Assembly (NCBI GenBank): GCA_030248295.1
Contig: JASANH010000902.1
Span: 182,283-246,282 of the forward strand
DNA from: Mesodorylaimus sp. YZB2_4
Lineage: Eukaryota; Nematoda; Enoplea; Dorylaimida; Dorylaimidae
DNA length: 64,000 nt
Reading direction: 5' to 3'
A program made the position numbers and the translations under genes. Below the pieces are notes generated by a model that was not told the origin of the DNA, did not search any database, and saw only the letters and a program-made list of their open reading frames with translations. Positions 7,379 to 61,905 of this stretch are shown here, piece by piece (the stretch's first letter is position 1; every line of letters begins with the position of its first letter).

Positions 7379-7582
7379 AAGTGCTGCATCCTAGACGCTT
7401 GCCGTCTCGACCATTCGCGCACACGCGTTAAATCATTAAAATCAAGTGTTTATTTAGCAACGCGCAAAATCGACAGCTGTTTTGCAACGCGAGGCACGAA
7501 ACGCGTGACAGAATGCGGGAAATGATTATTTGCGCAAGAAATCATCTGGTCCGAACATGATCTCCCCCAAAAAAACCAGGGA

Positions 7583-7589
7583 TATAAAA
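7583..7589 (+). promoter_or_regulatory. TATA box of the Cys-rich precursor gene
   Basis: GATATAAAACAG lies about 95 bp before the ATG at 7683. It is a canonical TATAAAA in an otherwise GC-mixed intergenic stretch of about 300 bp and suggests a focused promoter with a 5' leader of about 65-70 nt. Confidence 0.5.
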
Positions 7590-7682: not shown

Positions 7683-8486
7683 ATGAAGACTGATTTGATT
7701 CTGTCCATTGTGGTCATCGTGAGTGAAGCTTGCTTGGTCCAAGGTCGACCCGCAGAGCACAATGGAGTTCAACCCGAGGAAAGTAAAATGCAATCAAGCC
7801 AAGCTGTGGCTGTCCAAGGCGAGGATCTCTCGGCTGTCAAGCGGCGCGGATGTGGATACGGTGGGCACATGGGCGATGGTATGCGTGGCGGGTGGGGATT
7901 CGTGCAACGTGAACTTGCTTCCAAACAAAGAAATGAGCGCTGCGGTGGATGGGGTCATCGAGTTCGCGAATTGCAATCACCAGACGCCCCTGGAAACGTC
8001 GGAAAGCGCATGCATCGCACGAAACGCGGATGCTGCGACTGCTGCAAATGTTGCGACTGCTGCAAGTGCTGCGACTGCTGCAAGTGCTGCGACTGCTGCA
8101 AGTGCTGCGACTGCTGCAAATGTTGCGACTGCTGCAAGTGCTGCGACTGCTGCAAGTGTTGCGACTGCTGCAAGTGCTGCGACTGCTGCAAGTGTTGCGA
8201 CTGCTGCAAGTGTTGCGACTGCTGCAAGTGCTGCGACTGCTGCAAGTGTTGCGACTGCTGCAAGTGCTGCGACTGCTGCAAGTGCTGCGACTGCTGCGGC
8301 AAACGCCTGCTGGCTCGACGCGCCGCCAAGTTTGCGAAAGGACTAATGTTCATTCAACGAGATGAGCAAGTCAATCGCCAACGACGATGTTTCCAAAGCC
8401 GGGAAGTCGGCAGAAGAATGTACATGGGCGGTATGGGCGGCAGCATGGGACATGGTTATATGGCTCATGGGTGCAGGCGTGTGTAA
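7683..8486 (+). CDS. Secreted precursor with 15 tandem Cys-rich hexapeptide units (CCDCCK)
   Basis: Single exon, 267 aa. The start gives a signal peptide (MKTDLILSIVVIVSEACLVQG), which singles out this frame from the others that are also open through the tandem repeat. Residues about 117-205 are fourteen CCDCCK units plus a last CCDCC (8031-8297, 18-bp period), giving sixty cysteines. The block is bracketed by processing-type sites: HRTKRG before it and CCGKR after it. Gly-Lys-Arg after the last cysteine is the classic signal for cleavage and C-terminal amidation; GNVGKR is a second such site upstream. The tail is Gly/Met/His-rich (MGGMGGSMGHG). Function is unknown. Metal binding or a disulfide-rich secreted material are both possible. 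No homologous family is recognised. The repeat units differ by only a few silent TGC/TGT or AAG/AAA changes, so the array is recent or homogenised. Confidence 0.8.
   Translation: MKTDLILSIVVIVSEACLVQGRPAEHNGVQPEESKMQSSQAVAVQGEDLSAVKRRGCGYGGHMGDGMRGGWGFVQRELASKQRNERCGGWGHRVRELQSPDAPGNVGKRMHRTKRGCCDCCKCCDCCKCCDCCKCCDCCKCCDCCKCCDCCKCCDCCKCCDCCKCCDCCKCCDCCKCCDCCKCCDCCKCCDCCKCCDCCKCCDCCGKRLLARRAAKFAKGLMFIQRDEQVNRQRRCFQSREVGRRMYMGGMGGSMGHGYMAHGCRRV
8031..8297 (+). repeat. 18-bp coding tandem repeat, 14 full units plus 15 bp
   Basis: Period TGCTGCGACTGCTGCAAG, with variation almost only at third positions (TGC/TGT for Cys, AAG/AAA for Lys). Every change seen is silent in the frame of the 7683 CDS. 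Confidence 0.95.
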
Positions 8487-27183: not shown

Positions 27184-28296
27184 TCAAGATCTTTGCTTTC
27201 TTGTCGCTTCATCGCCCGCCTGAACTGAAATTCTGGCCACTCCTCGCACAACAGACGAGTTGAAATTGGTGCCCGCTGCCGTGGTTGATCTAGCGCCAGT
27301 CGGTGCCACGCTCGAATTGAGCTGACGAGAACAGGTTAGTTTGCCAAGAGTAGCTTTGAACCCGTTGCGATACTCCTTGACCATCATGATCAAAGTGGGG
27401 AAATCGAACACACTCCTCAACAATTCGAACAAGCCGATCAGGGGCACGTAACTCATTCTCATCGTGTCGGTCAGAAGGGGCGAATTGATTATCATCAACA
27501 TCAAACTAGCCAGGGCCGAACTGATCAGAAATATAGCCACCACCGCCAACAACATTTTCAACGCATTCATTTGAACGTTCTTTTTAAACGTTTTCATATC
27601 CTGGTTCGATTTCACGGCGCGACGCCATCGAACAATCAGGACCAGACAACTGATGAAATTCAGCACCACGACCACGATGCACACCGTGTTTTGGAACCAT
27701 TTGGCCACAATTCGATACGTTTCCACTGGCGCTGTGCCGAAAGCGCACACGGTGAGCAACAGTTCGCCGCTGCTGCCGGAGTACATGCCGAGCCCCATGG
27801 AGCCGCCGAACGACACGCCCCCCACGATCAGACACACTTTGCACACCTTCTTCCAATTCTTGTACCAAATGGGTACGGCCAGGGCCAGCAGACGATCCGT
27901 GCTCAGGGCCACGATCAGCATGTAGACCACGTACTGCGGGACGATGATGAAGGTCAGCCAAATCATGCAGTGCCTCTGCGGAGCCACATCGTGCCAACGG
28001 CCATCCGTTTCGTAGAGTCGTCGAGTGGCCAGCACCCCCAGACCCACTGCCTTGACCAAATCGCCCACGGCTATGGCGAAGATCATACTCTGCTCCAATT
28101 TACGCAAAGGTCTCCAGCATAAGGTGGTGTAAATTTGCAGTGCGCCGATTATCAACCCGATCATACCCACCACCAACCACAAAATATTCGAGATCTTCTG
28201 AGCCATCAACACTTCGAGGGACAAAGTGTACATTGAGGAATTTTGGAGTGCCGACATTATCGCGGCAGATATTTGTAAAAGTACAGTTTTTCTCAA
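27184..28296 (-). CDS. Intronless seven-transmembrane receptor, nematode Srsx/rhodopsin-like
   Basis: Single exon, up to 370 aa. A second Met 13 codons in (28257) gives the N-terminus MSALQNSSMYTL, with an N-glycosylation sequon, and is the likelier start. Seven hydrophobic segments are visible, beginning ISNILWLVVGMIGLIIGAL, with short polar loops. The third ends ALSTDRLLALAVPIWYKNWK, a DRL variant of the E/DRY motif followed by the AVPxxYKN loop common in nematode chemoreceptor-type receptors. TM6 follows the basic stretch TFKKNVQMNALKM. The Ser/Thr-rich C-tail with RQLNSSVAPTGARSTTAAG could be phosphorylated. The ligand is unknown. A TATAAAAG lies 43 bp upstream of the first ATG. Intronless state may mean retroposition, but many receptors of this type are naturally so. 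Confidence 0.85.
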   Translation of the reverse strand: MRKTVLLQISAAIMSALQNSSMYTLSLEVLMAQKISNILWLVVGMIGLIIGALQIYTTLCWRPLRKLEQSMIFAIAVGDLVKAVGLGVLATRRLYETDGRWHDVAPQRHCMIWLTFIIVPQYVVYMLIVALSTDRLLALAVPIWYKNWKKVCKVCLIVGGVSFGGSMGLGMYSGSSGELLLTVCAFGTAPVETYRIVAKWFQNTVCIVVVVLNFISCLVLIVRWRRAVKSNQDMKTFKKNVQMNALKMLLAVVAIFLISSALASLMLMIINSPLLTDTMRMSYVPLIGLFELLRSVFDFPTLIMMVKEYRNGFKATLGKLTCSRQLNSSVAPTGARSTTAAGTNFNSSVVRGVARISVQAGDEATRKQRS

Positions 28297-29535
28297 AGGA
28301 ACTCTCCCGAATAAACTTTTTCCACTCGCACACTTGATCTTTTATACTTTTCCACACGCGTCTTCTGGAAAGAATCTGATAAAGTTCAAAGGAATGAACC
28401 GAGCCGTGTTAATCCTTCGGTGCTTCCCTTAAATCCTGCGGACCCCAGACGAGTATTGACGTTAATGTAGGATGGATCAGATATGAGCCTCAGCTCTCTG
28501 CCATGTCGAAAAATGTGAGGCATCTGACTGATATAGGAAATTGATGACATGGCATGATGGCCCAAAATCTGGATCACAGCTTCACAATGATTAATCCATG
28601 CTTAGGGAGCCGTGTGCTATGAAATACTACATTATAGCCAGCGATCCGAGACGAACCAGCAGCCACTTGCACTGAAGGCACCAGAGGAATCTGTGAGAAC
28701 ATCTTCTCTTCCCGTGTGTCCTCGACGATGGAGATTATAGTGCACCATGTCAGACGTCTAAGCCTCACATGTCCTATGCCAGTGCACAATCAGTGCTTCT
28801 GGTGTCAGTGACCCGCTGTTGGTTTTAGCTCCAAGGTGAGGCAACCTACTATCCTCTAAACAAAGCACATTAACGAGAAAATCAGTGCACTAACAATCTT
28901 CTGTTGCACTTACGATTAGAAGTTGCACCTTTTCTTGCCAGACTGCCATGCCAGTGCTATCTTGTCTGCATAACCAGTATTCCTGGTGGTCACACAATGG
29001 ATACTTTCTCCTGGCTGGAAGACGGCAACCTCTCTGGTTGACATCAGGTCTTGCACCTAGCGCTGGCCCTAACATGCACATTTTCGTTAAAATATCCCCT
29101 CACTTTCCTTGGCTTTGTGCACATCCTAAAGAAACGGCTATTAGGCTCCCGCAATCAAATGTTTCTTTGCCTGACTGTGTCATGCATGCATTAATTAAGG
29201 AAGCCGCATGCTGGCATGGCAAAGAACAGTTGACAGGCCTGAAAGACAAGCCAGGCGAATGCACTGGAAAAGAACACTTTTCGTGCCTCTAATCCACACA
29301 TCTTTTTTACTTCATAGCAAATATAGTATTCTGAATGAAGTATATTTGCACAACACAACAATGCGCACTCGAACATTACGGAAGTCACCATGACCCAGAT
29401 CAATAATACAAAAATCACCCATGACTATCATTGCGATCAGGTCCAAAAAAGTCCCGCCGCCCAGACCCACTATCGATCAATGCAATCCCTACACCAGCCT
29501 AAACACGTGTGTCAGTTCAACATGCACAATCCTGT
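28297..29535. other. Region between GPCR 5' end and FCHO 3' end
   Basis: The two genes are on the same strand, so this is GPCR promoter plus FCHO 3' flank. It includes repeat family A partial copy at 28970-29065. No additional coding exon could be supported. Confidence 0.5.
28339..28347 (-). promoter_or_regulatory. TATA box of the GPCR gene
   Basis: Minus strand reads AAAAGTATAAAAGATCAAG. The spacing to the first in-frame ATG (28296) leaves only a leader of about 15-20 nt, whereas the second ATG (28257) leaves about 55 nt. This favours the second as initiator. Confidence 0.6.
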
Positions 29536-43021: not shown

Positions 43022-44111
43022 GCATATAACTGCCTATAACACGGGTATCTTAGGAACCGGCGCGAAAGTCCACGGAGTGCGCAAGTTCACATTGACTCGC
43101 ACGATTCATCGATTCGTCGCGGCGGTTAACGAGCATTTGTACGCCGAACTGGTCGACTTGCCCAGTAAGAGAGAGCAAGCACGTGGACTCGTGGAGAAGT
43201 TTGAAGATAAAGCTGGCATACCAGAAGTATTTGGGTGCATCGATGGGTCCCGCATCGATATCGTGAATATCCCTTGAGATATCGAGGCCCAATTTGTAAA
43301 CCGGCATGGAAACCATTCAATCAACGCCATGTTTGTCTGCGGCCCAGGCTTGAGGTGAGCGAGTGGTTCTGCTGCTTTACCAGGGAGATTTGTTTTAGCG
43401 TATTGGTAACACGAATGACATCATGGCTCGGCGTATGAGGGCCAATGCATTATGCGTCTATTCCATTTCATATCATTTGTTTGTGCCCCAGAGCTTAAGA
43501 ATCGTTTTTTATTCGAGCCAGATAGAGGAATATGACCTCGTGACAACTGGTCAAAGTAGATCAGACAGAGTATCCTTATCAGTCGCTGAACTATTCACGT
43601 TTTTAGGTTTTATTATGTCTCGTCAAGGTGGCCGGGTTCCGTGAGCGATCAAAGAGTATTTCGAAATAGCAACTTGTTTGGGCGACTCGAGAGGGGATGG
43701 CGGCCTACTTGGATTCTACAGAATGGCGTATTATTGGGCGACTCAGGCTATGCCAATACTAATTACTTAATTACGCCCTTGCCTCACGCGGTCACGGCAC
43801 AGCAGGAGCAGTTCAATCGCCATCAAAGGAAAACACGACATTTGATCGAGTGTGCAATTGGAGTCCTGAAGCAACGTTTTCGCTGCCTTCTACTGCCTCA
43901 ACATTTGGCTCCATCATTCGTTGGCGAGGTTATCCGCTGTTGTGCTGTTTTGCACAATCTTCTGATGGGACCCGATGAGGCGGCACTGTTTCTCGAGGAC
44001 GATGACTGGCGTCCTGATGGGAATATGGATAGCAGCGACAACGGAAGCGACGATGATCGGCATCTGGACGGTGGCTTGACTCGGCGGCTCCAACTTATAG
44101 CAAGGTTTTGA
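43022..44111 (+). pseudogene. Harbinger transposase, one nonsense codon
   Basis: Two exons, 43022-43354 and 43607-44111, separated by a GT-AG intron (43355-43606) that restores the frame at GLR|FYYVSSRWPGSVSD. Exon 1 contains LGTGAKVHGVRKF and GCIDGSRIDI (first Asp). Exon 2 contains LLGDSGYANTNYL (second Asp) and RHLIECAIGVLKQRFRCL (Glu), followed by CCAVLHNLL. All three DDE acidic residues are therefore present. The frame is broken by one TGA at 43275-43277, directly before DIEAQFVNRHGNHSIN; a CGA-to-TGA change would explain it. The N-terminus upstream of 43022 is missing or unrecognised because TAG precedes it. The family cuts and pastes DNA with the help of the Myb partner. Confidence 0.85.
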
Positions 44112-61629: not shown

Positions 61630-61905
61630 GTGTTGAAAGGTGATGTGATGATTTGATGAGAAGAAGTGTTGAAAGGTGATGTAATGATTTGATGAGAAGA
61701 AGTGTTGAAAGGTGATGTGATGATTTGATGAGAAGAAGTGTTAAAAGGTGATGTAATGATTTGATGAGAAGAAGTGTTGAAAGGTGATGTAATGATTTGA
61801 TGAGAAGAAGTGTTGAAAGGTGATGTGATGATTTGATGAGAAGAAGTGTTAAAAGGTGATGTAATGATTTGATGAGAAGAAGTGTTGAAAGGTGATGCTT
61901 TAGAC
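61630..61905. repeat. 36-bp minisatellite, 7 full units plus a partial
   Basis: Unit GTTGAAAGGTGATGTGATGA followed by TTTGATGAGAAGAAGT. Units differ at two positions (GTTGAAAG/GTTAAAAG and GTGATGA/GTAATGA). The minus strand is open through it (61476-61985, repeating SPFNTSSHQIIT), but this is a by-product of the 36-bp period. Confidence 0.9.

Follow-up and report, generated by a model that had tools for sequence, protein, structure and literature searches.

Polycysteine genes in the nematode Mesodorylaimus: a family of putative secreted precursors and a possible disulfide-linked material

What kind of gene encodes an array in which 60 of 89 residues are cysteine, does such a gene stand by itself, and what might be made of its product? 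These questions are posed by a locus of the dorylaimid nematode Mesodorylaimus sp. YZB2_4, located in a 64,000-nucleotide stretch of DNA that was analyzed as a whole (hereafter, the window). Plus-strand positions 7683–8486 form one uninterrupted reading frame from ATG to stop (267 codons, 267 amino acids) for which no intron is required, and within it Tandem Repeats Finder delineates a repeat at 8031–8297 (period 18, 14.8 copies, score 478) translating over 89 codons into fourteen CCDCCK units followed by a terminal CCDCC. An earlier note on this DNA had described a strict hexapeptide array of fifteen CCDCC(K) units with 60 cysteines, and this description is borne out by the repeat analysis and by the reading frame, with the correction that 7683–8486, where the note had placed it, is the extent of the entire precursor and 8031–8297 that of the array itself. 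Its contention that the units vary only silently also holds without exception, since the cysteines are encoded by 54 TGC and six TGT codons, all 15 aspartates by GAC, and the 14 lysines by 12 AAG and two AAA codons. A charge occupies every third position of the array, negative alternating with positive, and the protein includes eight non-overlapping KR/RR pairs. The parts of the locus are as follows.

7526–7560, plus strand: distal promoter block (TTATTTGC..CATGA), aligning in five relatives (one on contig C53, two each on C109 and C174) at a similar distance from the ATG
7583–7589, plus strand: TATA box, 100 nt 5' of the window gene ATG
7683–8486, plus strand: whole secreted precursor frame, 267 amino acids, with related proteins at 24 loci
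7683–7745, plus strand: leader peptide MKTDLILSIVVIVSEACLVQG, recognized by eye from its hydrophobic core and small residue at −1, with a predicted cut before RPAE
7785–7802, plus strand: KMQSSQ, near the site of the relatives' phase-1 intron; the window gene apparently has no intron here
8022–8030, plus strand: KRG, a dibasic cut signal adjoining the 5' end of the array, present in all 25 aligned arrays
8031–8297, plus strand: cysteine array, (CCDCCK)x14 followed by CCDCC
8298–8306, plus strand: GKR, an amidation-type glycine with dibasic cut, having equivalents behind all 25 arrays
8307–8483, plus strand: C-terminal propeptide with a Gly-Met-His-rich end (..GRRMYMGGMGGSMGHGYMAHGCRRV), aligning with relatives' tails of the CGGMGGDMGGHGMGGGCKRA type

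The window protein matched no Pfam family and no PDB entry at E ≤ 1, and the window had no Rfam match at gathering score. Elsewhere in the window a single minus-strand frame of 385 codons (27184–28341) matches the 7tm_1 and Srsx receptor families, a plus-strand frame (43590–44111) matches the DDE_Tnp_4 transposase, and a 36-bp tandem repeat (61630–61897, 7.4 copies, 96% matches) has one minus-strand frame open as HQIITSPFNTSS units.

Whether the gene stands by itself was answered by its own genome (1067 contigs, 145 Mb). A search with the window protein returned 37 matches and one with a relative 24; once matches at one locus had been combined and inspected for cysteine arrays, 25 loci were left, the window gene among them. 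What the earlier note had taken for a gene without known family accordingly has 24 array-bearing relatives, a finding that places its array beyond chance. Arrays of the relatives are 24–42 residues long, contain 22–41 cysteines (91–100% of the array) and have longest uninterrupted runs of 11–41, the shortest of these on C9; over all 25 loci array length ranges from 24 to 89 residues, and the highest cysteine count is that of the window gene. Eleven of the 24 conform exactly to C5-K-Cn-K-C5, a single lysine interrupts the arrays of C196 and C58, three nearly identical loci on C46 follow the pattern C4-K-Cn-K-C4, and pure runs of 26–41 cysteines appear at five loci on C109, C53 and C174. Aspartate is absent from the arrays of all 24 relatives, so that the hexamer, viewed in the earlier note as the defining feature, gives way to the dense cysteine block as the conserved trait; the note had also named many non-silent changes in relatives as counting against its view, and the CCDCCK unit is not kept there. 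The relatives are 38–61% identical to the window row (alignment A1, arrays included), and in a tree from which the array was excluded the window gene occupies a long branch of unsure placement. The window gene is thus a divergent member of the family, in which a tandemly expanded CCDCCK unit replaces the near-pure cysteine block.

A more distant locus on C2 has a 31-cysteine run after CGGG and before GKK, and its kinship to the family is suggested mainly by that run; the reading frame at C2:1612600–1614100 contains, besides the run, repeated RCCG-type units between basic residues. The family total is therefore at least 26 loci (25 aligned plus C2), as the search scored best candidates only. 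Queries with the C46, C2 and C9 members brought up no further polycysteine locus among the matches read, which were all but C24:761107 (E 0.001, 37%) and a pair of short, stop-containing fragments on C46 (116184 and 123685). Weak matches to the array region on C124 and C171 turned out to be long simple tandem repeats, of CDTVPD and of WIDCPV units, and were dropped. Several loci are individually distinctive. In the three C46 genes, units of the CGGGGGGCHRAARDAEYSRNAR type in tandem, together with WGKR peptides, come ahead of the cysteine block. C109 and C174 each contain two divergent, head-to-head polycysteine genes with arrays about 1.6 kb apart, those of the C109 pair being identical. One of the 24 relatives, C49:426889 (C49:426655–427188), is interrupted by an in-frame TGA in the exon that precedes its array, probably as a pseudogene or through faulty assembly. 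Long repeats in general may contain errors of assembly. As for the genome at large, PF01484, the N-terminal domain of nematode cuticle collagens, is matched 133 times in it and not at all in 14 control genomes, which probably do not test other animals; together with the Srsx receptor frame of the window this indicates a nematode. No match to the SL1 leader was obtained with a pattern allowing up to two mismatches, nor with the Rfam SL1 model, which found none in the controls either, a result that would be compatible with a lineage outside Chromadorea.

The family shares a gene architecture in addition to its arrays. Gene models could be built for 23 of the 25 loci, C247:64789 offering no leader start and the C46:121857 locus no upstream DNA; their leader starts (window gene plus 22 relatives) were chosen by hydrophobicity and by eye, and in many relatives the leader is hydrophobic and ends in ..ARPAE or similar. 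Between the leader exon and the array exon, 21 of the 22 modelled relatives have an in-frame phase-1 GT-AG intron, 50–90 nt long in 17 of these 21 according to a script that mildly prefers lengths near 70 nt; the script found none in C49:426889. In the window gene it found no intron of 33 nt or longer and the frame reads straight through, as it also can through the intron of C247:82946, and a 36-nt GT..AAG stretch noticed by eye, rejected by the script, is a candidate very short intron. A TATA box lies between −115 and −60 of the ATG in 22 of 23 models, versus 13 of 437 control windows lying still farther 5'; the C9 model, outside that count, has its TATA box at −63. Similarity of the remaining upstream DNA is patchier. 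The window upstream region exceeds the maximum of 100 shuffles for only four of 22 relatives, namely C59 (score 37 against 26), C40 (28 against 26), C53 (31 against 30, at the same position) and C9 (26 against 25, at another position); the other 18 show no excess over shuffles, although the alignments of those on C109 and C174 fall at almost the same position. An origin of the window gene as a retrocopy is disfavoured by its retained TATA box and part of the upstream block, which make intron loss in place preferable to a promoterless copy, and on this reading of the DNA the window gene is apparently a family member that has lost its intron in place.

That the arrays are translated as cysteine is supported by their codons and by the surrounding sequence. 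All 942 array codons of the 25 loci are 595 TGC, 281 TGT, 44 AAG, seven AAA or 15 GAC, with nothing else; hence all 876 cysteine codons are TGC or TGT, and GAC is confined to the window gene. Among eight arrays of equal length every variable column (19 of 19) varies at the third codon position, compared with 19 of 29 in the C-terminal flank of the same genes, a result that, if the flank rate applied, would be expected with a probability of roughly 3 in 10,000 by our own arithmetic, in which shared descent is ignored. TGC repeats are, however, CAG-type repeats, and a TGC/TGT exchange is silent also in the +3 leucine frame and in the antisense glutamine frame, so that a bias toward third positions is not by itself enough to decide the frame; the antisense glutamine frame was examined for this reason. 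Over the tested stretch the sense frame is open at all 25 loci, whereas the antisense frame has stops at 22 and is open at three. Across 18 relatives (C118, C9, the three C46 genes and C49:426889 excluded) residue differences number 2443 in the sense against 3035 in the antisense frame out of 16682 codons, the sense count being lower in 132 of 153 pairs, and comparison of the window gene with the same 18 gives 746 against 990 out of 1803. For dN/dS the set comprised the window gene and 19 relatives, with C118, C9 and the three C46 genes excluded. Among the relatives the flanks have a median ratio of 0.11 (158 of 171 pairs past the dS filter), showing purifying selection on them; of the 19 pairs that include the window gene, dS is saturated in 11 and the ratio is 0.11–0.26 in the remaining eight. 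This is a protein-coding family, and every array cysteine is conserved at the codon level.

Even where the aligned members have diverged most, it is the array edges that stay most constant. The earlier note had pointed to TKRG before and GKR after the array; both are present in the window gene, and KRG precedes all 25 arrays, which are followed by GKR in 21 cases, GRKR in three and GRR in one. Its interpretation therefore stands as to the leader, the cut signals flanking the array and the glycine with basic residues behind it, and fails as to the defining hexamer and the gene as a loner. Edges of such constancy fit excision by proprotein convertases and amidation from the glycine, and the conserved cut sites support release of the array as a peptide, insofar as this can be read from the DNA. 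In the genome the P domain of proprotein convertases has seven exon matches and Cu2_monoox_C (PF03712) has 35, both being counts of exon pieces and not of genes; PF03712 is common to dopamine beta-hydroxylase-like enzymes and not specific to amidating enzymes, and its matches thus lend weak support.

Taken together, these properties lead us to a reading to which we assign about an even chance, namely that the genes encode secreted multi-peptide precursors, and that the freed polycysteine peptide is oxidized to a disulfide-linked secreted material. As we infer its cleavage, amidation, cross-linking and tissue, the leader would be removed first, after which convertase-type proteases would cut at the KR/RR sites to free one ultra-cysteine peptide, of some 90 residues with 60 cysteines in the window product and corresponding to the 24–42-residue, 91–100% cysteine arrays in the relatives. 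The C-terminal glycine of the freed peptide could be converted to an amide, and Gly/Met/His-rich peptides would be released alongside. Outside the cell, oxidation of cysteines within and between chains may then generate an insoluble disulfide-linked material, for which cuticle, eggshell, mouth lining and gland secretion are candidate sites. For a freed block that has no unique disulfide pairing, cross-linking into a material would be the simplest use. In the window variant dense cysteine is kept while charges break the homopolymer, and it is therefore density, and not a hydrophobic run, that seems to be kept.

Precedents for such a material resemble the family in part. High-cysteine chorion proteins and keratin-associated proteins are cysteine-dense cross-linked materials encoded by large paralog families, and the present genes have the leader, the cysteine density and the multigene organization (25 aligned loci and one distant) of cross-linked structural proteins of this kind. 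The cysteine share of these proteins reaches at most about 40%, however, we know of no prohormone-type excision among them, and no chorion or keratin-associated model is among the Pfam matches of the family. Avian eggshell membranes are built from disulfide-rich repeat proteins, and the CREMP of these membranes is, like the family, repetitive and cysteine-rich and forms a disulfide-linked extracellular material, but it has C-X4-C-X5-C-X8-C-X6 modules of conserved spacing without a block of adjacent cysteines (PMC3068167). Polycysteine itself has been made in a nematode by experiment, in CAG/CUG-repeat studies where chains of about 37 and about 90 residues aggregated in C. elegans with weak phenotypes; these were GFP fusions, made deliberately to model disease in neurons and muscle, whereas the present family is natural, leader-bearing and conserved (PMC7117740).

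Searches for a named relative were otherwise negative. Among the 25 members the only Pfam matches at E ≤ 1 were DUF3726, CARD and Orthopox_C10L (three members each, best E 0.16), which we take as chance, and a PDB profile search with the family gave nothing at the same threshold. A bacterial collection contained CCCCCCC in 594 stretches but no relative at E ≤ 1e-3, the CCDCCK array not being detectable by that pattern; a viral collection had a search pattern in three stretches, none a relative; and no secreted polycysteine family was among the open-licence papers listed, two hits being judged chance letter strings. Within Pfam, PDB, both collections and these papers no account of this kind of protein was thus found, and relatives may be present among unnamed proteins of eukaryote databases.

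A signalling or a metal-related role would leave identical evidence in the DNA, and both must be weighed against the secreted material. The main rival, unlikely in our estimate, is a secreted metal binder: Cu(I), Zn or Cd would occupy the cysteine block, and the peptide would serve in metal storage, transport or removal, a role to which extreme thiol density and the Met- and His-rich neighbouring peptides would be suited. Metallothioneins are cytosolic proteins, and the secretory path favours disulfides, so that the leader peptide of the precursor counts against this role, as does the outcome of the Pfam search at E ≤ 1, in which no metallothionein model matched any of the 25 members and in which HMMER filters may suppress sequence this biased. 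In favour of it is a nematode precedent, Trichinella Ts-PCHTP, a secretory protein with a signal peptide, cysteine-rich domains and a His tail that binds iron, nickel and zinc, was seen in the cuticle and has been proposed to store or transport metal (PMC2954182). It differs from the family in having two homologous domains with spaced cysteines followed by the His tail and in being reported not to be excreted outside the parasite (PMC2954182), and its CxCCC[HPY] motif occurs in none of the 25 array exons.

Less probable again, and in our view rather doubtful, is an amidated signalling or antimicrobial peptide family akin to the nematode neuropeptide-like (NLP) and caenacin precursors, which combine a signal peptide with KR-bounded, Gly-rich peptides ending in glycine and basic residues. 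The many paralogs, the leader, the several dibasic-bounded and Gly-rich peptides and the glycine with dibasic site behind the array all recall such precursors, although to our knowledge none gives rise to a polycysteine product and no credible model of a known peptide family of this type was found in Pfam for the 25 members. Signalling and antimicrobial peptides usually require a defined shape, and here neither length (24–89 residues) nor disulfide pairing, for which a run of up to 41 cysteines offers no unique solution, is fixed, which makes this role less likely.

A membrane anchor or cysteine-string element, that is, a hydrophobic or lipid-modified segment, would agree with the K/R residues flanking the blocks and with the hydrophobic rating of cysteine on common scales, but we hold it to be very improbable. 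Cut signals frame every aligned array, no J domain of the kind found in cysteine string proteins was detected in the 25 array exons (the window gene being scanned as a whole protein), and this reading was rejected on the window array, with Asp or Lys in each third place, and on C9, where the longest run is only 11 cysteines. Least credible of all, and largely rejected by the frame tests described above, is the view of the array as a microsatellite of CTG/CAG type or as a piece of an antisense polyglutamine gene, since the TATA box, the leader exon and the phase-1 intron likewise point in the sense direction.

Cysteine is among the least repeat-tolerant amino acids in surveyed proteomes (PMC5125637), and with this the present genes stand in contrast, having 24 loci with cysteine runs of 11–41 and no missense change save at a few lysine positions. 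If the blocks are indeed excised and exported, a cell has to cope with a chain that lacks a unique disulfide pairing, and one may ask how oxidation is kept from occurring too early in the secretory path. We suggest tentatively, and at less than even confidence, that some nematodes produce an extracellular polymer of near-pure polycysteine, with up to 41 consecutive cysteines, cut from prohormone-like precursors and joined by disulfides, of which the window gene would be a charged, period-three (CC-D-CC-K) variant. If true, this would be a natural polycysteine material, and its window member a natural experiment separating cysteine density from homopolymer hydrophobicity.
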